Shown here: positions 9,699-18,701 of the stretch, in pieces
Position numbering within the stretch: the stretch's first letter is position 1
How the letters are laid out: each line of letters begins with the position of its first letter
Origin: Cucumibacter marinus DSM 18995
Lineage (GTDB): Bacteria; Pseudomonadota; Alphaproteobacteria; Rhizobiales; Devosiaceae
NCBI RefSeq assembly: GCF_000429865.1
Contig: NZ_KE386980.1
Span: 63,079 to 127,078 of the forward strand
Direction: 5' to 3'
DNA length: 64,000 nt
Notes under the pieces: generated by a model
Databases searched by the model: none
What the model was told of the DNA's origin: nothing
The model's input: only the letters and a program-made list of their open reading frames with translations
Translations under genes and position numbers: made by a program

Positions 9699-10148
9699 AT
9701 GCAGTTTTACGAAACAAAGCGCCTCGAAGAGATGACCCAGGCCGAATGGGAGGCACTGTGCGATGGCTGCGCCCGCTGTTGCCTGATCAAGCTCGAGGAC
9801 GAAGACACCGGTGAAATCGTCACTTCGGACGTGCATTGCCGCCTGCTCGACGGCGACAAATGCGCCTGCACCGACTACCCCAACCGCCAGAAACTGGTGC
9901 CCGACTGCATCAAGCTGACCCCGGACAATGTCACCAAGATCCGCTGGATGCCGCCGACCTGCGCCTATCGCCGCATCGCCGAAGGACGGGGGCTGGCCTG
10001 GTGGCATCCGCTGATCTCCGGCGACCCGGAAACCGTGCACACAGCGGGCATCTCGGTGCGCGGGCGCACCGTTTCCGAGAACGATGTGCCGGCCGACGAT
10101 TGGGAGAACCATGCGGTGATGTGGCCCGAAATGGACCCGGACGCCTGA
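9699..10148 (+). CDS. YcgN family cysteine-cluster protein (UPF0260)
   Basis: This 149-residue cytoplasmic protein has the YcgN/UPF0260 pattern: [20 protein letters not shown] near the N-terminus, then [17 protein letters not shown], a later Cys in VPDCIKL, and PPTCAYR. The conserved cysteines suggest a metal site of the CxxCxxCC type. Function is not established. It stands alone, divergent from the penicillin-binding protein gene. Confidence 0.85.
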
Positions 10149-10174
10149 GCTCTCGCACGGCCTGATCGCCCTGC

Positions 10175-10218
10175 TTGGATATTCGCCCACCCCCGGCTAG
10201 TGTTTCGGGAACGGAAAC
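10175..10218 (+). promoter_or_regulatory. Weak promoter candidate with dyad upstream of the SatD-like gene
   Basis: TTGGAT (10175-10180) and TAGTGT (10198-10203) are 17 bases apart, a weak sigma-70-like pair. A GTTTC-N7-GAAAC dyad (10202-10218) overlaps the -10 element. Its half-sites differ from those of the array downstream of the gene. Confidence 0.25.
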
Positions 10219-10253
10219 CGGCGGGCACGCCGACAGGCAGCGGCGGAGGGGAA

Positions 10254-10910
10254 GTGGCTCAAATCATTGCGGTTCTGACCGGCGATGTCGTCGGTTCGCG
10301 CGATCTCGGCGCGGATGGACTCGACAGGCTGTTTGCGGCGCTCGAGGCGGCGGTCAGCGAGATGGCCGGCTGGCCGGGACAGACGGACAAACCGCCCTTT
10401 GCCCGCTATCGGGGCGATGGCTGGCAGCTCGCGCTCAACAATCCGGCGCTTGCGCTGCGGGCGACCCTGGTGGCGCGGGGCGCGGTGAAAGCCGCGGACA
10501 AACGATTCGATACGCGGATCGGTGTGGGTATCGGGCCTGCCAGTGTTCAGGACATCAATGAAATCGGCCAGGCCAGTGGGGTGCCTTTTGAGGCCGCAGG
10601 CAAGGCTCTTGATGATCTTTCTGGTCCAATCCGTTTCGGCTACCGGTCTGATAACCGCTACCCCGAGCATGACAACCTGCTTGATGCCTGCTTGGCGCTT
10701 GCCGATGCATGCAGTGCTGATTGGACGCAGGCACAGGCAGAGGTAATGTCTCGCTTCTTGTTGGACAGCGGATTGACGCACAAGGCTATCGGGGAGTCCT
10801 TGAACCCACCTATTTCGCAACAGACGGTGTGGCGACACTTCCATGCTGCGCGGGGTCCTGCGTTGGAACTTGCCATCAATCGCGTTGAGACTAATTGGAA
10901 AACAGCGTAA
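10254..10910 (+). CDS. SatD-like protein with C-terminal helix-turn-helix
   Basis: The GTG at 10254 follows a strong ribosome-binding site (GGCGGAGGGG) and gives 218 residues. The N-terminal two thirds show the SatD family pattern: LTGDVVGSRD at the start, RYRGDGWQLAL in the middle and DTRIGVGIGPAS. These spaced GD/RGD/IGxG motifs recall nucleotidyl-cyclase-like folds, but this is inference. Residues about 165-210 (LTHKAIGESL...SQQTVWRHFHAA) look like a sigma-region-4-type helix-turn-helix. The last third is less GC-rich than its neighbours. SatD genes are often followed by a DUF3307 membrane protein, as here. The stop codon lies inside the first of six dyads, so the protein may bind its own downstream region. 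Confidence 0.65.
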   Translation: MAQIIAVLTGDVVGSRDLGADGLDRLFAALEAAVSEMAGWPGQTDKPPFARYRGDGWQLALNNPALALRATLVARGAVKAADKRFDTRIGVGIGPASVQDINEIGQASGVPFEAAGKALDDLSGPIRFGYRSDNRYPEHDNLLDACLALADACSADWTQAQAEVMSRFLLDSGLTHKAIGESLNPPISQQTVWRHFHAARGPALELAINRVETNWKTA

Positions 10911-11099
10911 TTTAGCTGTTTTTGTGAAATACAGCTTAAAAGCGCTGTTTTATGGGTGACGCCCAAACAAGTGATTTCGCTGGTTTTTGGCAATTACAAG
11001 CGATTTCGCTTGTTTTTTGATTGGGCGGGCAGCGAGGCCTGAAGGCCCGCGAACAGCCAAAACCGGCTGTATTCCGGGAAAACAGCGTCATCACGCTGT
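10902..11099. repeat. Array of six 18-bp dyads arranged as three 47-bp modules
   Basis: Six sites share a 5-8-5 layout. ACAGC-N8-GCTGT occurs perfectly at 10902-10919, 10931-10948, 11053-11070 and 11082-11099. ACAAG-N8-CTTGT occurs perfectly at 10996-11013 and with one mismatch (CTGGT) at 10967-10984. They form three pairs, and within each pair the centres are exactly 29 bp apart, with an 11-base linker. The pairs are separated by 18 and 39 bases; the longer gap holds a small GCGGGC/GCCCGC hairpin. The array fills the gap between the SatD-like and DUF3307 genes. A protein-binding operator array is the simplest reading; tandem RNA hairpins are the alternative. Confidence 0.8.
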
Positions 11100-11118
11100 G
11101 CAGGAGAGGGGACGCATC

Positions 11119-11867
11119 ATGATCGCCAGTTTCACCGCGCTGCTGGTGGCACATCTGATCGCCGATTTCGTGCTGCAGCCCCAATGGATGGCACGGGCAA
11201 GCAGAAGACGGGGATGCTGCTTGCCCATGTCGTTGTCGTTGTCGCGACCGCGATCATCGTCACCGGATCGCTTGCACCGCTGCCCTTGCTGGCGCTGGGG
11301 GCCAGCCACGCGATCATCGATGCCATCAAGGCGCGGCGGGAGGACAGCTTTGCCGCCTTCATGCTCGATCAGGCCGCGCATGTCGCGGTACTGTTCGTGA
11401 TCGCCTGGTTCGTTCCGGCCCTCTACGCGGCAGGGTGGTGGGGAAGTCCACCTGTGGCCATCGCGGACACCATGCCGTCGCCCGCAGGCGTTCTCCGTGC
11501 GCTGACGCTGATCGGCGGCCTTCTGTTGACCCTGAGGGTCGGCGCCTTCGCCATCGGCAAGTTCATGGACCGGTTCGATCCGGGACCGCTACAGGACGCC
11601 ACCGGGACAACCCCGCGCGAGGATGACGGTTTGCCGGGCGGCGGGCTCTATATCGGCTATCTCGAACGCACCCTGATTTTCATCCTGGTGCTGGCCGGCG
11701 AACTGGCCGCTATTGGTTTTCTCGTCGCCGCCAAATCCGTGCTGCGCTTCGGCGAAGCGCAGAAGCGCCGCTCGAGCGAATACATCATCATCGGCACCCT
11801 CGCGAGCTTCGCCTGGGCGCTCGCGGCGGCACTGGCGACGCGATGGTTGTTGGAGCGGTTTGGGTGA
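11119..11867 (+). pseudogene. DUF3307 membrane-protein gene interrupted by a frameshift
   Basis: The true start is the ATG at 11119 behind AGGAGAGGGG. The first frame gives IASFTALLVAHLIADFVLQPQWMA, the typical DUF3307 opening, but then leaves the family pattern and ends at 11400 after 93 codons. The pattern resumes in another frame as GKQKTGMLLAHVVVVVA and runs to 11867 with several further membrane segments. Adding one G to the GGG run at 11195-11197 restores a single frame reading WMARGKQKTG. So either the gene carries a one-base deletion or the assembly has a homopolymer error. DUF3307 proteins are inner-membrane proteins of unknown function that co-occur with SatD. Confidence 0.75.
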
Positions 11868-12334: not shown

Positions 12335-12463
12335 GGCGCCCCCGGGAGAAGGCTTACGCAAAAATCCGGATATCATTCCTATTTTTCCGTGGTGGTGTGA
12401 CTGAGTCGCGCCGCCGGCGAGAGGTGTGGACATTCAGGATTGTGCTTCGCTCAGGAGCTTTTG

Positions 12464-12985
12464 ATGACCGAATCCGACGCAGCCGAGAACAGCGCCGACG
12501 GGGCCAATGCGGGAGGCAAGGGCGAGCTGGAAGAAATGGCAAGGCGGATTGTCCGCTATGGTCCGGGACCGACCCACACGCCGGATATCGACTGGATTGC
12601 CCTGCGTGCCGAATACGAGACGGGCGCAGAAACGGTGACTTCGCTTCTGGCCCGCTACGGGATTTCAACCACGGCGCTCTACACCCGGATCGCCCAGGAA
12701 AAATGGCGGATGCGGGCGGACGGGCCGCCGGTCACCCGGCGCTTCCTGGTCACGCGCCTGTTCAGGATGATCGAAAAGCAGATCAAGGCCATCGAAAACA
12801 AGCCGCAGGCCGAATTGGGCGAGGCCGAATCCCGGCAGCTGGGCAATCTGACGCGCACGCTCGACAAGCTGATCGAGATCGACGACGCGGATGATGCGGC
12901 GCGGCGCTCGGCCTTTCCTGGTGAGGATATGGCTGCGCTGCGCAAGAAGGTACTCGACCGCCTCGCCGAGATCGCCGGTGATTAG
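12464..12985 (+). CDS. GTA small terminase-like protein (gp1-type)
   Basis: The product has 173 residues from the ATG at 12464, which has AGGAG six bases upstream. Residues about 50-80 (YETGAETVTSLLARYGISTTALYTRIAQEKW) look like a helix-turn-helix, followed by a long helical, charged segment suited to oligomerisation. This layout and the position directly before the large terminase fit a small terminase subunit that recruits DNA for packaging. In GTAs this protein is thought to have lost specific pac recognition, consistent with packaging of random host DNA. The gene overlaps the terminase large subunit start by eight bases if the GTG at 12978 is used. Confidence 0.75.
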   Translation: MTESDAAENSADGANAGGKGELEEMARRIVRYGPGPTHTPDIDWIALRAEYETGAETVTSLLARYGISTTALYTRIAQEKWRMRADGPPVTRRFLVTRLFRMIEKQIKAIENKPQAELGEAESRQLGNLTRTLDKLIEIDDADDAARRSAFPGEDMAALRKKVLDRLAEIAGD

Positions 12986-14285
12986 ACAGGATGAACCAGA
13001 GGTCGAGAGCGACGACCCAAAAGGGCGCTTGGCCGGGGTGAGCGAAGATCGGGTCGCCGGGATGTCGTTTGACTGGCTCGTGTTTGCCCGGGCGGCCCAA
13101 TTGCCGCCCCTCGGCAACTGGACCACCTGGCTGCTGCTGGGCGGGCGCGGCGCCGGCAAGACGCGGACCGGCGCCGAATGGATACGGGGGCTGGCGATGG
13201 GTCTGCCTTTCGCTGCGCCAAAACCGGTGAGCCCGATTGCGCTGGTCTCGGAAACCATCACCGAGGCGCGGGCGGTGATGGTCGAAGGCATGTCCGGGGT
13301 TCTCTCGATCAGCCCGCCGGCGGAACGGCCCAAGCTGATCAGCGGCAAGAACCGGCTCGAATGGCCCAATGGCGCGGTGGCGCAACTGTTCGGGGCGGGC
13401 GATCCGGAAAGCCTGCGCGGCCCGCAATTCGCTGCCGCCTGGTGCGACGAGGCGGCCAAGTGGAGCAGGGCGGAAGCCGCATTCGACATGCTGCAATTCG
13501 GGCTGCGGCTGGGTGACCACCCGCGGCAGCTGATCACGACGACACCCAGGCCCACCCCGCTGATCCGGCGGCTGGTGAGCGATCCGGCGGTGAGGCGCAC
13601 CCATATGCGCAGCACCGAAAACAGGAAGAATCTCGCCCAGAGCTTCTTTTCGGCGATCACCGCGCGCTACGAGCACACCGCCCTCGGGCGGCAGGAACTC
13701 GATGGCGAGCTGATCGAAGACGATCCCAATGCGCTGTGGCAGCGCGACTTGTTCGACCGGCATCGGATGAACCGCGTGCCCGAGCTGGAGCGGATCGTGA
13801 TCGCCATCGACCCGCCGGTGACAAGCCATGCCCGGTCCGACGCTTGCGGCATCATCGCCGCGGGGCGGCGCGGCGAGCGGGCGGTGGTGATCGAGGACCT
13901 GAGCCTGCGGCCCGCACCGCCGATCATCTGGGCGCGGCGGGCCGTTGAGGCGTTTCACCGCCTCAAGGCGGATGTAGTGATCGCCGAGACAAACCAGGGC
14001 GGGGAACTGGTGACCGGATTGCTGCGTCAGGTTGACCCCGATGTGCCGGTGCGGGCGGTGCACGCGAAGCGGGGCAAATGGACCCGCGCCGAGCCGGTTG
14101 CCGCGCTCTATGCCCGCGGGCTTGTGAGCCATGTCGGGCTGTTTGCCGAACTTGAAGACGAAATGTGCGCCTTCGGCCCCAACGGGCTGTCGGGTGGCGG
14201 TTCGCCCGACCGGGTCGACGCGCTCGTCTGGGCTCTCAACGAGCTGATGCTCAATTCAGCGATACCCCGCATTCGCGGGCTCTAG
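12978..14285 (+). CDS. GTA terminase large subunit (gp2-type)
   Basis: This packaging ATPase/nuclease pumps DNA into empty heads. The Walker A motif is GGRGAGKT (residues 55-62 from the GTG at 12978), and WCDEAAKW supplies the Walker B acidic pair. The C-terminal half has an RNase H-like nuclease layout with VIAIDPP and DVVIAETNQGG, and ends with the DRVDALVWALNEL stretch typical of this family. The start is uncertain: GTG 12978 gives 435 residues, while ATG 13062 gives 407; neither has a strong ribosome-binding site. Confidence 0.93.
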   Translation: MIRQDEPEVESDDPKGRLAGVSEDRVAGMSFDWLVFARAAQLPPLGNWTTWLLLGGRGAGKTRTGAEWIRGLAMGLPFAAPKPVSPIALVSETITEARAVMVEGMSGVLSISPPAERPKLISGKNRLEWPNGAVAQLFGAGDPESLRGPQFAAAWCDEAAKWSRAEAAFDMLQFGLRLGDHPRQLITTTPRPTPLIRRLVSDPAVRRTHMRSTENRKNLAQSFFSAITARYEHTALGRQELDGELIEDDPNALWQRDLFDRHRMNRVPELERIVIAIDPPVTSHARSDACGIIAAGRRGERAVVIEDLSLRPAPPIIWARRAVEAFHRLKADVVIAETNQGGELVTGLLRQVDPDVPVRAVHAKRGKWTRAEPVAALYARGLVSHVGLFAELEDEMCAFGPNGLSGGGSPDRVDALVWALNELMLNSAIPRIRGL

Positions 14286-14300
14286 ACAAGGGGAAACACA

Positions 14301-15494
14301 ATGCCCAACTGGCTCGCTCGCCTGACCGGCGGCGGGGCGCCTGAGCGCGTCTCGACTCCAATACCGCCCGAAGGCAAATCGGCGGTACTCAACGCGCTGA
14401 TCGGGGCCGGAGCGCAGGGCGGCAGCGTTCCGCGCAGTTACGCCGGGCTGGCCCGGGCCGGGATGATGCGCAATCCGGTGGTCTTCCGCTGTATCCGGCT
14501 GATCGCAGAAGGGCTGGGCGCCATGCCGCTAGTGGTCGAGGAAGGAGGGCAGCGCTTTACCGAACACCGAGTGCTTGGCCTCATTGAGCGGCCCAATCCC
14601 CGCCAGACGCGGCAGGAATTTCTCGAGACCATCGGCACCAATCTGATGGCGGCGGGAGACGCCTATTGCGAGGCGGTGAGCACCGGTGGCGACCTGGCCG
14701 GGCTCTATCTGTTGCGGCCCGACCGGGTCTCGGTGACGCTGGACGCCGATGGCTGGCCCCGCGCCTATCGCTACACGGCGGGCGGGCGCACCCGGCAGAT
14801 CCCGGCAGGTGGGGCAGGGGGTGGCGAGCCGCTGCTGCACCTCAGCCTTGGCCATCCGCTCGATGATCATCACGGCCTGGCGCCGCTTGCTGCGGCGGCG
14901 GCTGCGCTGGAGGTGCATAACGCGGCTCAGGATTGGAACCGTTCGCTCCTCGCCAATGCGGCGCGGCCATCGGGCGCGCTGGTCTACACCGCAGGCTCAG
15001 GCAATTTGACCGGTGACCAGTTCGAACGGCTCAAAACCGAACTCGAAGCCGGCTACCAGGGCGCGCTCAATGCCGGTCGGCCGCTGGTGCTCGAAGGCGG
15101 GCTCGACTGGAAAGCGCTGGGGCTGAGCCCGCGCGACATGGATTTCATCGAAGCCAAGAACGGGGCGGCGCGCGACATCGCGCTGGCATTCGGAGTGCCG
15201 CCCATGGTGCTCGGCATTCCCGGCGACAACACCTACGCCAATTACGCGGAAGCCAACCGGGCGCTGTGGCGCCAGACCATCATTCCGCTGGCCCGCCGGA
15301 TCACCGGCGATCTGAGCCGCTGGCTCGGCGGACATCTGGGCGGGGACTGGCGGCTGGCGCCGGATACCGACCGCATCGAAGCGCTTTCCGCCGAACGCGC
15401 CCAGCTCTGGGAGCAGATCGGGAAGGCGGACTTCCTGTCCGATGCCGAGAAGCGCCGCATGCTGGGGCTGGGCGAGGGCAATTCGGGGCAATGA
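14301..15494 (+). CDS. GTA portal protein (HK97 family, gp3-type)
   Basis: The 397-residue product is a typical HK97-family portal: RNPVVFRCIRLIAEGLGAMPL near the N-terminus, NPRQTRQEFLETIGTNLMAAGDAY, the GLAPLAAAAAALE helix, and FGVPPMVLGIPGDNTYANY near the C-terminus. Portals form the dodecameric DNA gate at one head vertex. The ATG follows AAGGGG, with 15 bases between it and the terminase gene. Confidence 0.95.
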   Translation: MPNWLARLTGGGAPERVSTPIPPEGKSAVLNALIGAGAQGGSVPRSYAGLARAGMMRNPVVFRCIRLIAEGLGAMPLVVEEGGQRFTEHRVLGLIERPNPRQTRQEFLETIGTNLMAAGDAYCEAVSTGGDLAGLYLLRPDRVSVTLDADGWPRAYRYTAGGRTRQIPAGGAGGGEPLLHLSLGHPLDDHHGLAPLAAAAAALEVHNAAQDWNRSLLANAARPSGALVYTAGSGNLTGDQFERLKTELEAGYQGALNAGRPLVLEGGLDWKALGLSPRDMDFIEAKNGAARDIALAFGVPPMVLGIPGDNTYANYAEANRALWRQTIIPLARRITGDLSRWLGGHLGGDWRLAPDTDRIEALSAERAQLWEQIGKADFLSDAEKRRMLGLGEGNSGQ

Positions 15495-15521
15495 CAACTG
15501 ACCAAGGAGGGGAGAACTTGA

Positions 15522-15719
15522 ATGACCGATCTGACAAGGACAATCGCCGAACGGGGCGATCTGGCGCATCTGGCCCTGTTTCTGTGGGCGAGCGGCGCCA
15601 GCGCCATGCTGGCCTGGTGCCTCAGGGAACTGGTGGCCGCGAACCGGCGCTTCGACACCTTCATCAAGGAGATCGCCGCGCTCAACCAGCTCTTCGGCAA
15701 CAGGGGTAATCCGCAATGA
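15522..15719 (+). CDS. Small GTA-cluster membrane protein
   Basis: The 65-residue product starts at an ATG behind AAGGAGGGG. Residues about 15-38 (LAHLALFLWASGASAMLAWCLREL) form one membrane helix, followed by an amphipathic helix. Small proteins occur between portal and protease in several Rhizobiales GTA clusters, but their role is unknown. Its stop overlaps the start of the next small gene. Confidence 0.6.
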   Translation: MTDLTRTIAERGDLAHLALFLWASGASAMLAWCLRELVAANRRFDTFIKEIAALNQLFGNRGNPQ

Positions 15720-15886
15720 AACGCAAATCGCACCAACGGACGGCAAGGCGAGACAGCGCGCAGGTGTTCCGTGAATTTGCCTTCAACATAGCCGGTACGC
15801 TGATCGGCACCCACGCCACGCGGTTGGGCAAGCCGCGGCCGACGGTGCCGCAAAGACCGCCAAGCCGGGCCGGCGGCACCCGATGA
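15716..15886 (+). CDS. 56-residue basic protein between portal and prohead protease
   Basis: This short frame is fixed by its junctions: its ATG overlaps the stop of the upstream gene in ATGA, and its stop overlaps the protease start in another ATGA (15883-15886). The product is rich in Arg/Lys at both ends, with a central segment FREFAFNIAGTLIGTHATRL. Translational coupling on both sides argues it is translated. I recognise no family. Confidence 0.55.
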   Translation: MKRKSHQRTARRDSAQVFREFAFNIAGTLIGTHATRLGKPRPTVPQRPPSRAGGTR

Positions 15887-16380
15887 AGCCCATGCTGATC
15901 GATGAGAATGGCCATTTCGCCGGCTATGCCAGCCTGTTCCACTCCGCGGACCAATCGGGAGACCGGGTGATGCCCGGCGCTTTCGCCGCGTCTCTGGCAC
16001 GCCGGAACGCAAAGGGCGTGCGCATGCTGTTTCAGCATGATCCGAGGGAACCCGTGGGGGCCTGGGCCCGGCTGGCGGAAGACGACAGGGGCCTGTTCGC
16101 CGAAGGACGGCTGATCGCCGATGGCGGGCGGGCCGATACGCTGAAGCGGCTGATCGGCGGCGGCGCGCTGGACGGGCTCTCCATCGGCTTTCGCACCGTG
16201 CGGGCCGACAAGCAGGGCGCGGGAAGACGCCTGTGGGAGATCGATTTGTGGGAGGTCTCGATCGTGACCTTTCCCATGCATGCCGGCGCCCGCATCTCCG
16301 CCCGATCCCACAGTGACCCGGACCATCTGCACCTTCTGGCCGCCGGCGCCCGGCGCGCCATCGCCGCGCTCGCGGCCTGA
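15883..16380 (+). CDS. GTA prohead protease (HK97 family, gp4-type)
   Basis: This 165-residue serine protease trims the capsid protein and scaffold during head maturation. It has the family order: GYASLFHSADQSGDRVMPGAF, the active-site His region MLFQHDPREPVGAW, and the Ser region LDGLSIGFRT, followed by LWEVSIVTFPMH. It lies directly before the major capsid gene, as in other GTAs and HK97-like phages. Confidence 0.93.
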   Translation: MKPMLIDENGHFAGYASLFHSADQSGDRVMPGAFAASLARRNAKGVRMLFQHDPREPVGAWARLAEDDRGLFAEGRLIADGGRADTLKRLIGGGALDGLSIGFRTVRADKQGAGRRLWEIDLWEVSIVTFPMHAGARISARSHSDPDHLHLLAAGARRAIAALAA

Positions 16381-16416
16381 GCCGACACACTCAACACCCC
16401 AAACCAAGGACCCATC

Positions 16417-17694
16417 ATGACCGAACCGACCAATCCGGCCGGGGCGCAGAACTCTGCGTCTCTCGAAACCAAGGCTCTGCCGGTGGAAAACAAGGCGCTG
16501 CCGACCCCCGAACCGGGTGGCGATGCCGTGAGTGCCATGGAAGAGTTGGCCAGGGCGTTCGAGACCTTCAAGGCCGAGAACGATGCCCGGCTGGCCGATA
16601 TCCAGAAAAAGGGTGCCGCTGATCCCCTGAGCGAGGACAAGCTCGACCGTCTCAACGCAGCGCTCGACCGGCACAAATCGGCGCTCGATGCCATGGCCCT
16701 GAAAGCCGCGCGCCCGGCGCTCGAAACCGGCACGCCGGCTTTCGATGATGAGTATGGGGCTGCCTTTTCTGCCTATGTGCGCCACGGCGAGGAAAAGGCG
16801 CTCTCCATCGGCTCCAACCCCGATGGCGGCTACCTGGTGCCGGACGAAACCGAGACCGAAATCCTGCGCCGGCTCTCCAGCGTCTCGCCGATCCGCTCGA
16901 TTGCCGGGATCCGGCGTGTCTCCGGTCCCAATTACCGCAAACCGATCTCGGTGACCGGTCCGGCGACCGGCTGGGTGGGCGAAACCGATGCCCGGCCCGA
17001 GACCAACTCCCCGGTGCTCGATGCCATCGATTTCCCCACCGCAGAGCTCTACGCCATGCCGGCGGCGACGGCGTCCTTCCTCGACGATGCAGCGGTCGAT
17101 GTCGGCCAGTGGATTGCCGAGGAGATCGACGCGGCGTTCGCAGGGCAGGAAAGCGCGGCCTTCATCAATGGTGATGGGGTCAAGAAGCCCACAGGGTTCC
17201 TCTCCGAGACCCAGGTGGCGGAGAGTGCCTGGAGCTGGGGCAATATCGGCTATGTCGCAACCGGCGTGGATGCCGATCTGCCGGCGAGCGATGAGACCGA
17301 CGTACTGATCGATCTCGTCTATGCGCTCAAGGCCGGCTACCGTCAGAACGCCCATTGGGTGATGAACAGGCGCACCCAGGCCGCGTTGCGCAAGCTCAAG
17401 GATGCGGACGGCAACTATATCTGGCAGCCCGCGCTCGCGCCGAATGGCCGCGCCACCTTGCTGGGCTTCGAATTGGTCGAGGCCGAGGACATGCCCGATT
17501 TCGGCTCCGATGAGACCCCGATTGCCTTTGGCGACTTCCGCCGCGGCTATCTGATCGTCGACCGGCAGGGCGTGAATGTGATCCGCGATCCCTTCACCGC
17601 CAAACCCTACGTCCTTTTCTACACCACCAAACGCGTCGGTGGCGGCGTTGCCGACTTCGACGCCATCAAGCTTCTCAGGCTCTCGGTTTCCTGA
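16417..17694 (+). CDS. GTA major capsid protein (HK97 fold, gp5-type)
   Basis: The product has 425 residues. Residues 1-100 are charged and coiled-coil-like and should act as the cleaved scaffolding region. The HK97 fold follows: SIGSNPDGGYLVPDETETEI, then VSPIRSIAGIRRVSGPNYRKP, WVGETDARPETNSP, and a C-terminal FGDFRRGYLIVDRQG. The start follows CCAAGGACCCATC. It is separated from downstream genes by a strong hairpin, which may help set its higher expression. Confidence 0.95.
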   Translation: MTEPTNPAGAQNSASLETKALPVENKALPTPEPGGDAVSAMEELARAFETFKAENDARLADIQKKGAADPLSEDKLDRLNAALDRHKSALDAMALKAARPALETGTPAFDDEYGAAFSAYVRHGEEKALSIGSNPDGGYLVPDETETEILRRLSSVSPIRSIAGIRRVSGPNYRKPISVTGPATGWVGETDARPETNSPVLDAIDFPTAELYAMPAATASFLDDAAVDVGQWIAEEIDAAFAGQESAAFINGDGVKKPTGFLSETQVAESAWSWGNIGYVATGVDADLPASDETDVLIDLVYALKAGYRQNAHWVMNRRTQAALRKLKDADGNYIWQPALAPNGRATLLGFELVEAEDMPDFGSDETPIAFGDFRRGYLIVDRQGVNVIRDPFTAKPYVLFYTTKRVGGGVADFDAIKLLRLSVS

Positions 17695-17710
17695 CCGGTC
17701 GAGCCCGAGG

Positions 17711-17739
17711 CCCCGGCCGGTCCCTCCCGCCGGCCGGGG
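17711..17739 (+). terminator. Strong hairpin after the capsid gene
   Basis: CCCCGGCCGG (17711-17720) and CCGGCCGGGG (17730-17739) form a perfect 10-bp stem with a 9-base loop. No U-run follows directly. It may cause partial termination or protect the 3' end of the capsid message, giving more capsid than downstream proteins. Confidence 0.4.
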
Positions 17740-17769
17740 CACCCTGCCTTTCGCTTTGAGGATACTTTC

Positions 17770-18348
17770 ATGACATCGATATTGCTGGCGGGACCGGCGC
17801 TTGAGCCGGTGACCCTTGCCGAAGCCAAAGCATTCCTGCGCGTCGACACTGGCGATGAAGACGATCTGATCGCCACCCTGATCGCAGCGGCCCGCATCCA
17901 CACAGAAGTGGTCACGCGCCGCGCCATGATCGACCAGAGCTGGCGGCTGGCGCTCGACGCCTGGCCTGAGGGCCGTGAAGTGCGCATGCCCATCGCGCCG
18001 CTGCGCGCTGTGAGCGCGATCCGGGTATTCGATGCCGAGGGCGAAGAGACCGAATTGCCGCTGGCGCAGTTCATCGCCGAAACCGGCTCGACACCGGCGC
18101 GCCTGATCCTGCCGAGCAGTATCCCCGGGCCGGACACATTGAGGCCTTTCGCAGCAATCGAGATCGACTATCTCGCTGGCTATGGCGAAGCCGCATCGGA
18201 TGTGCCCGCGCCGCTCAAGCAGGCTGTCTTGAGCCTTGTCGCGCACTGGTTCGAGCACCGCGACGCCGTGATCATGGCCGGCTCCGGAGCCGTGGTGCCC
18301 GCCGGTTTCGACCGGCTGGTCGAAGGCTATCGGCAGGTGGCGTTATGA
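17770..18348 (+). CDS. GTA head-tail connector (gp6-type)
   Basis: The 192-residue product matches the phage gp6-like/phiE125 gp8 connector family: PVTLAEAKAFLRVDTGDEDDLIATLIAAARIHTE at the N-terminus and a helical C-terminal part. It forms the adaptor ring under the portal. Its stop overlaps the start of the head-closure gene. Confidence 0.88.
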   Translation: MTSILLAGPALEPVTLAEAKAFLRVDTGDEDDLIATLIAAARIHTEVVTRRAMIDQSWRLALDAWPEGREVRMPIAPLRAVSAIRVFDAEGEETELPLAQFIAETGSTPARLILPSSIPGPDTLRPFAAIEIDYLAGYGEAASDVPAPLKQAVLSLVAHWFEHRDAVIMAGSGAVVPAGFDRLVEGYRQVAL

Positions 18349-18701
18349 GCGACGCGAGGGTCCCTGCTCTTGGCACACTGCGCGACCGGGTGCAGCTGCT
18401 CCGGCGTGTCACGACACCCGACGGCGCCGGGGGCGAGGAAATCGCCTTTGTCCCGTTGGCAACGGTCTGGGCCCGGGTGACTGCCCGAAACCCCGCCCTG
18501 ACCGCGCATGGGGCGGGACCCGCTGCACAATCCACCCACAGCGTCGTGCTGCGCTACCGCACAGATCTGACACCGGGCGATCGGCTGACCTATCGCGGGC
18601 AATCGCTCGATGTCGTCGCGGCGGACGATCTCAACGGGCGAAAGGCCTATCTCTCCCTGACCTGCATGATCGCCGATCCGCTGGGAGGTCTCAGTGCCTG
18701 A
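18345..18701 (+). CDS. GTA head-closure protein (gp7-type)
   Basis: The 118-residue product has the SPP1 gp16-like head-closure pattern: RDRVQLLRRVTTPDGAGGEEIAFVPLATVWARV followed by a short beta-rich domain. It seals the connector after DNA filling. It overlaps its neighbours on both sides (four bases upstream, eight downstream), so it is translationally coupled. Confidence 0.88.
   Translation: MSDARVPALGTLRDRVQLLRRVTTPDGAGGEEIAFVPLATVWARVTARNPALTAHGAGPAAQSTHSVVLRYRTDLTPGDRLTYRGQSLDVVAADDLNGRKAYLSLTCMIADPLGGLSA

Follow-up and report, generated by a model that had tools for sequence, protein, structure and literature searches.

The satD-like locus of Cucumibacter marinus

The window analysed here is a stretch of 64,000 nucleotides (64 kb) from Cucumibacter marinus DSM 18995, in which a satD-like gene is followed by a gene for a DUF3307 membrane protein, and the gap between the two holds an array of six short dyads that are recognised from the sequence itself and by pattern search. 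The features of the locus are the following.

10254..10910, + strand: satD-like gene, 218 amino acids from a GTG start, with a class III cyclase-like domain and a C-terminal helix-turn-helix (HTH)
10818..10847, + strand: recognition-helix codons, for residues 207-216 by the numbering of the 236-residue frame, with the specificity residues Q207, Q208, T209 and R212
10902..10919: dyad 1, ACAGC-N8-GCTGT, including the satD stop codon (10908-10910)
10931..10948: dyad 2, ACAGC-N8-GCTGT, 29 bp from dyad 1
10967..10984: dyad 3, ACAAG-N8-CTGGT, with one mismatch
10996..11013: dyad 4, ACAAG-N8-CTTGT, 29 bp from dyad 3
11053..11070: dyad 5, ACAGC-N8-GCTGT
11082..11099: dyad 6, ACAGC-N8-GCTGT, 29 bp from dyad 5
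11119..11867, + strand: DUF3307 membrane-protein gene, frameshifted near 11180-11200, with PF11750 matched in two frames

The first-pass annotation had described six dyads of 5-8-5 geometry forming three pairs at exactly 29 bp, with the satD stop codon inside the first dyad, and both the sequence and the repeat and pattern searches confirm this; the DUF3307 start codon (ATG at 11119) lies 19 bases past the last dyad rather than the 20 given there. As had been supposed, the array is not a product of chance: the paired pattern with its 11-nt linker occurs three times with at most one mismatch, compared to 0.00 expected from 100 shuffles, and ACAGC-N8-GCTGT alone is found 4 times in the window against 0.04 expected. 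The centres of successive pairs are separated by 36 and 57 bp. Across the complete 3.71 Mb genome no paired match with one mismatch or none is found beyond the three of the window, so the array is real and confined to the satD-DUF3307 gap; when up to three mismatches are allowed there are 11 paired matches in all versus 25 for a reversed control pattern. An isolated perfect ACAGC-N8-GCTGT elsewhere in the genome (G000:C9:54865) lies inside a coding sequence, by eye of the membrane antiporter type, and was rejected as a chance occurrence. An imperfect inverted repeat, GCGGGC...GCCCGC, is located at 11025-11050 between the second and third dyad pairs and has a geometry unlike that of the dyads.

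The start of the satD-like gene was picked by eye from the purine-rich stretch ahead of the GTG at 10254, while the mechanical open reading frame begins at 10200 and encodes 236 residues. The SatD family model PF16264 matches the protein at 13.4 bits (E 0.06), which is under the curated cut-off of 29 bits, and we therefore refer to it as SatD-like; the family name derives from the sat genes of Streptococcus mutans. The same model matches 13 of 56 aligned homologues at E ≤ 0.1, and when used as the search family at E ≤ 0.001 it finds only 2 of 297 genomes and misses that of C. marinus. The AlphaFold2 model of the protein has a mean pLDDT of 95.5. In a profile search with 55 SatD-like proteins, the N-terminal half matches Ma1120, a class III cyclase (E 3.7e-5), and the C-terminal part matches an HTH found in regulators of zinc transport (5yhz, E 2.2e-4). 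Structural neighbours of the N-terminal domain include class III adenylyl and guanylyl cyclases, GGDEF domains and GTP cyclohydrolase III (Foldseek E from 1.5e-4, the value for Ma1120; VIA-align Z to 11.2); the superpositions on Ma1120, Rv1900c and Rv1625c give Z of 9.7-11.2, the highest for Rv1625c, with rmsd of 2.7-3.3 over 133-137 residues and sequence identity of about 15-20%. As modelled, the domain is a class III nucleotidyl cyclase fold, and it differs from these cyclases in being fused directly to an HTH. Class III nucleotidyl cyclases have two metal-binding aspartates, and D11 (in a column conserved in at least 90% of the 55 sequences) and D55 (invariant) of SatD both align with aspartates of Ma1120. 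Class III cyclases also carry a catalytic Asn-Arg pair, and the SatD-Ma1120 profile alignment ends before the helix that bears it. The N-terminal domain is probably a dimerising sensor of a nucleotide or a metal.

The DUF3307 family model PF11750 passes its curated cut-off of 23 bits in the translations of both 11119-11205 (27.3 bits) and 11184-11864 (36.8 bits), which reveals a frameshift that the first-pass annotation does not mention; it could be a genuine mutation or an assembly error, and the sequence is compatible with either. The intact copy of a relative (G009, see below) was modelled as an all-helical protein with pLDDT of 94.2. Nine residues are invariant among 33 sequences (H12, D16, H37, H64, D68, K71, D84, Q85 and H88), and this set of H, D, K and Q looks like a candidate metal site. 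The sequence search gave no solved relative of DUF3307, Foldseek gave no match at E ≤ 0.001, and VIA-align no row above Z 6.7, so we claim no fold for it.

The pair is preceded by the gene of a CxxCxxCC (PF03692) protein at 9699-10148, and a gene that resembles it by eye sits after the pair in G009 (L006, 3046-3498). Adjoining the pair on the other side, the genes at 12440-18350 look by eye like a head gene cluster of a phage or gene-transfer agent (terminase, portal, protease, capsid).

Paired dyads at related loci

A satD-like gene is present at E ≤ 0.001 in 2 of 41 genomes, namely that of C. marinus and G009 of the same family, and a survey of 136 genomes of this family found it in the same two only. 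The 166-bp gap between satD and DUF3307 in G009 contains four dyads (at most one mismatch) at exact 28-bp steps, with half-sites of the types ATAAG, ATAGC, ATAGA and ATCGA, which differ from those of the window. The first protein search of genome contigs gave no matches, but a search with a DUF3307 alignment did find loci and contributed 110 more; these are best matches, mainly from Rhodobacterales to judge by such record titles as are given, and with some genomes counted twice, and the locus counts given below are accordingly no unbiased census. Among 147 loci parsed, 19 had no recognisable gene pair and 128 had the satD-DUF3307 pair; dropping 13 entries whose SatD protein was already represented left 115 distinct loci. 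Start codons were set mechanically; this is clearly wrong for locus L012, and the window's own copy (L005) was hand-corrected for geometry scoring.

Each locus was scored for its best pair of 5-8-5 dyads at 20-40 bp from each other by the agreement of the four half-sites, the maximum being 20. The best pair scores at least 18 in 98 of the 115 distinct loci compared to 1 of 345 dinucleotide shuffles, and at least 17 in 110 loci compared to 10 shuffles. The five loci that stay under 17 are L012, with its misplaced start, L081, which is cut by a contig end, and L017, L064 and L070. The spacing is narrowly distributed: at a score of at least 18, and bearing in mind that shifted registers of one site can be counted repeatedly in such regional totals, 32 of 33 matches in the gap regions lie at 28-29 bp and 128 of 144 matches in the 400 bp upstream of satD lie at 28-30 bp, whereas the control regions, DUF3307 coding sequence (21 matches) and downstream DNA (2 matches), have zero at 28-30 bp. 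The satD coding sequence used as a further control has 26 of its 59 matches at this distance because the mechanical reading frame often begins within the upstream array; when rechecked, 19 of the 26 fell wholly before the chosen start, 1 straddled it and 6 were inside the gene.

The position of the array depends on how the two genes are joined. Homologous loci without dyads in the gap had been named in advance as evidence against a regulatory unit, and gapless pairs indeed have none there, but 77 of the 79 loci whose two genes overlap or abut carry the array upstream of satD instead (score at least 17). Where there is a gap, it contains the array in 26 of 36 loci at the same score: 14 of these 36, the window included, have a gap array only, 12 have arrays in both places, 7 upstream only and 3 neither, although three of the 36 are doubtful as gap loci (L061 and L076 with truncated satD frames, L016 with a misplaced DUF3307 start), all with upstream arrays only. 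Three dyads are found in 39 and four in 16 of the 96 upstream arrays. Half-sites are largely common within a locus and different between lineages, with types including GCAAG, TCAAG, GCAAC, GCAAA, ACAGC, ACAGG, TCAAC, ATAGC, GTAGC and others. The window array, which mixes ACAGC with ACAAG, counts against a simple picture of one half-site type per regulator.

Paired sites also occur in plasmids. That of Sphingomonas insulae (NZ_CP048421.1, 70013-76642) carries a pair of TCAAC dyads at 28 bp. Plasmid records from four more distant organisms were judged by score alone for pairs before satD, and three of them contain a pair scoring at least 18 of 20: Segatella (Bacteroidota) at 28 bp, Pseudoalteromonas with a perfect GTAAC pair at 28 bp, and the archaeon Haloplanus with two pairs at 29 bp. 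The best pair of the fourth, a Salinivibrio plasmid, scores 17. The arrangement may thus reach archaea. On the haloarchaeal plasmid (NZ_CP098520.1) the two dyad pairs are of the TTCGG/TTCGC type, score 19 of 20 each and lie at most 200 bp before the SatD gene.

The gene surroundings are often similar as well. Motifs that we take to be those of SufT (DUF59) upstream and SufA (HesB) downstream flank 90 of the 115 satD-DUF3307 loci, with the downstream motif only in 7, the upstream only in 1 and neither in 17; judged by these motifs, the pair seems often to be situated within an iron-sulphur assembly neighbourhood. In the S. insulae plasmid the pair is near annotated genes for a Pycsar effector, an adenylate/guanylate cyclase and TIR-domain proteins.

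Coupling of SatD helix residues to half-site bases

Mutual information between SatD alignment columns and half-site bases was computed for 108 loci, with the half-site register fixed on A at position 3 and a mild preference for C or T at position 2 and A or G at position 4; base 3 is always A for that reason, and base 2 is little variable (C in 97 of 108 loci). By z, the top columns for bases 1, 2, 4 and 5 were 207 (27.7), 208 (12.5), 209 (12.2) and 212 (20.6), respectively. All four residues are located at the start of the second HTH helix, which is 189-198 of the 218-residue model and corresponds to 207-216.

Among the 106 loci that remain when L061 and L076 are left out, which were also used for the tree-controlled test and the cluster prediction, R207 goes with G at base 1 in 71 of 74 loci, P, T or A with T in 17 of 17, and Q with A in 10 of 12; at residue 208, Q goes with C at base 2 (94 of 98) and P with T (4 of 5); at residue 209, A goes with A at base 4 (73 of 76) and S with G (10 of 12); and at residue 212, K goes with C (23 of 23) and Q with G (25 of 25) at base 5, the remaining residues being less clean.

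Shared ancestry was addressed in two ways. When shared changes are counted on a tree of the N-terminal domain, columns 207, 208 and 212 come first for bases 1, 2 and 5, and for base 4 column 191, which changes fast, comes ahead of 209 in second place. When bases are predicted for clusters of loci left out in turn, the accuracy for bases 1, 2, 4 and 5 is 0.89, 0.95, 0.88 and 0.72 with 31 clusters, compared to 0.52, 0.86, 0.67 and 0.44 for the commonest base, and 0.93, 0.94, 0.89 and 0.80 with 87 clusters, compared to 0.68, 0.89, 0.80 and 0.59. Of the 203 columns compared, the best predictors with 31 clusters are 207, 208 (tied with 105) and 209 for their bases, whereas 212 comes second, slightly behind 93; with 87 clusters each of the four is the best, 208 again in a tie with 105. 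Two of the distant plasmids served as held-out checks by eye: the residues R, V, N and K of Pseudoalteromonas predict G, T, A and C at positions 1, 2, 4 and 5, in agreement with GTAAC, while in Segatella R predicts G at position 1 and T is seen. The coupling looks as is expected of a recognition helix reading its half-site.

Regulation by SatD and alternative readings

We conclude that the dyads are very probably DNA operators of the adjoining SatD-like one-component regulator, through which it would control the membrane-protein gene. The first-pass annotation had proposed that SatD binds the dyads and that the membrane protein responds, and this proposal is now strongly supported by the paired sites at 98 of 115 loci, by the coupling between helix and bases, and by the restriction of arrays to the satD locus in 13 genomes. 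The binding itself is strongly inferred from these comparisons. As to the restriction, 12 genomes of one family (f60), which to judge by their proteins would be Rhodobacterales, contain 26 matches to the GCAAG pair with up to three mismatches. Of these, 24 fall at the satD locus, among them every match with one mismatch or none; the two off-locus matches carry two and three mismatches, and three matches are obtained with the reversed control pattern. This concentration of matches suggests that SatD is a local, dedicated regulator. Binding by some other cellular protein, for which neither the restriction in the 13 genomes searched nor the position of the best-coupled SatD columns in the recognition helix would be expected, is hardly credible.

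The position of the upstream arrays suggests what SatD might do there. In 46 of 96 upstream arrays, 2-3 nt separate the end of the last dyad from the start codon chosen for satD, and the operon with an upstream array may be leaderless. A TTG hexamer is found in 78 of these 96 arrays versus 6 of 26 gap arrays. Among 60 upstream arrays with a 29-bp last pair, 36 have TA at 17 bp past the preceding dyad's TTG hexamer, compared to 6 of 60 one dyad earlier (Fisher p 9e-9), and gap arrays have TA at that place in 4 of 20 (p 0.004 versus upstream). The paired operators consequently appear to span both the -35 and the -10 element of the satD-DUF3307 operon. Counting against the operator reading, the promoter-like pair is missing from the window array, as it is from gap arrays in general, and a promoter scan of 10100-11200 gave no sigma-70-like site.

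In the mechanism that we propose, SatD would be a one-component regulator composed of an N-terminal class III cyclase-fold sensor and a C-terminal HTH. Each 18-bp dyad would be bound by one SatD dimer via its two recognition helices, and adjacent dimers would occupy paired sites 28-30 bp apart. In most relatives examined, where the array is upstream, the pair would lie over the presumed operon promoter and SatD would act as a repressor of its own operon, to be released by a signal. Gap arrays, including that of the window, would give SatD separate control over DUF3307, exerted by a block on transcription that enters the gene or begins at an internal start. SatD is probably an autorepressor; repression rather than activation, dimerisation and cooperativity are inferred.

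The alternative that survives best is that the dyads are SatD sites but SatD acts as an activator or as an anchoring type of binder. The gap arrays overlap no recognisable promoter and many upstream arrays have three or four dyads, which goes beyond the needs of simple repression, but the upstream sites lie over the presumed -35 and -10 and often end just ahead of the start, which is the position of a repressor, and we consider this alternative unlikely.

A second alternative is that the dyads act in the mRNA as tandem hairpins controlling DUF3307 translation, attenuation or processing. Gap arrays could be transcribed, and the RNA of the window array folds more stably than shuffles (z -4.8), with a minimum-energy fold that joins neighbouring dyads into longer hairpins; this carries little weight because tandem dyads fold stably anyway. 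One terminator-like dyad with a T-run was found, against a mean of 1.4 in shuffles, and an Rfam search gave no family at its cut-off (best mir-964, E 0.13), though Rfam need not contain every structured RNA. Paired RNA stems should tolerate G-U in place of Watson-Crick pairs, but there is no excess of G-U among the mismatches: the 179 of upstream arrays include 28 G-U and 35 A-C, and the 40 of gap arrays 2 and 9, although the power of this comparison is limited by the small number of mismatches. Within a locus the half-sites also largely agree from dyad to dyad, a likeness that RNA stems would not require, promoter-like elements lie inside the upstream arrays, and residues of the SatD helix predict the bases. 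The absence of G-U bias, the promoter-like overlap and the helix-base coupling make DNA operators a much better reading than RNA; the tandem hairpins with 11-nt linkers suggested in the first-pass annotation find no support, the commoner upstream arrays being promoter-like, and an RNA role is highly improbable.

The closest known systems are one-component HTH regulators that repress themselves through paired operators over their own promoter. SatD resembles them in the two-fold symmetric sites, the fixed spacing that suggests cooperation, the overlap with a promoter and the regulator gene adjoining its target. It differs in the class III cyclase-fold sensor, in sites that also lie between the two genes, and in tandem arrays of 2-4 dyads, mostly at 28-30 bp, in the 96 upstream arrays. 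Mycobacterial cyclase-HTH fusions such as Rv0386 likewise combine a cyclase-type and a DNA-binding domain in one protein, but unlike SatD they have an additional ATPase domain and an HTH of the LuxR type.

A further speculation is that SatD and DUF3307 form a Pycsar-like pair, found from Proteobacteria to Bacteroidota and haloarchaea, in which the cyclase-fold domain would make or sense a nucleotide signal while SatD sits as an array of several dimers on its own promoter and DUF3307 would be the membrane effector; we regard this as doubtful. A reading as anti-phage defence was rejected, PADLOC assigning 0 families to 5 proteins, and tblastn of a phage collection with the SatD protein of G009 (L006) gave no match.

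DUF3307 is named in a Ralstonia phage genome paper (PMC8504454), the SatD family in a Fusobacterium annotation paper (PMC10326533) and satCDE in a third (PMC12077213). Within the parts of the open-access literature that were searched, no function or DNA site is described for the satD-DUF3307 pair; operators and autoregulation are of a known kind, while a cyclase-fold one-component regulator with tandem 28-30-bp arrays next to DUF3307 was not found described in the same sources.

The same paired sites accompany SatD relatives in many bacteria, and a DNA-reading code can therefore be derived from sequence alone. From about 100 natural operator variants it assigns residues 207, 208, 209 and 212 to bases 1, 2, 4 and 5 in readable form. 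The SatD family thereby gains a testable function, sequence-specific autoregulation, and its cyclase-type fold becomes the likely sensor within a one-component regulator that has a DNA-binding domain. The DUF3307 membrane protein is in turn tied to the SatD regulator, with a nucleotide or metal signal in question.
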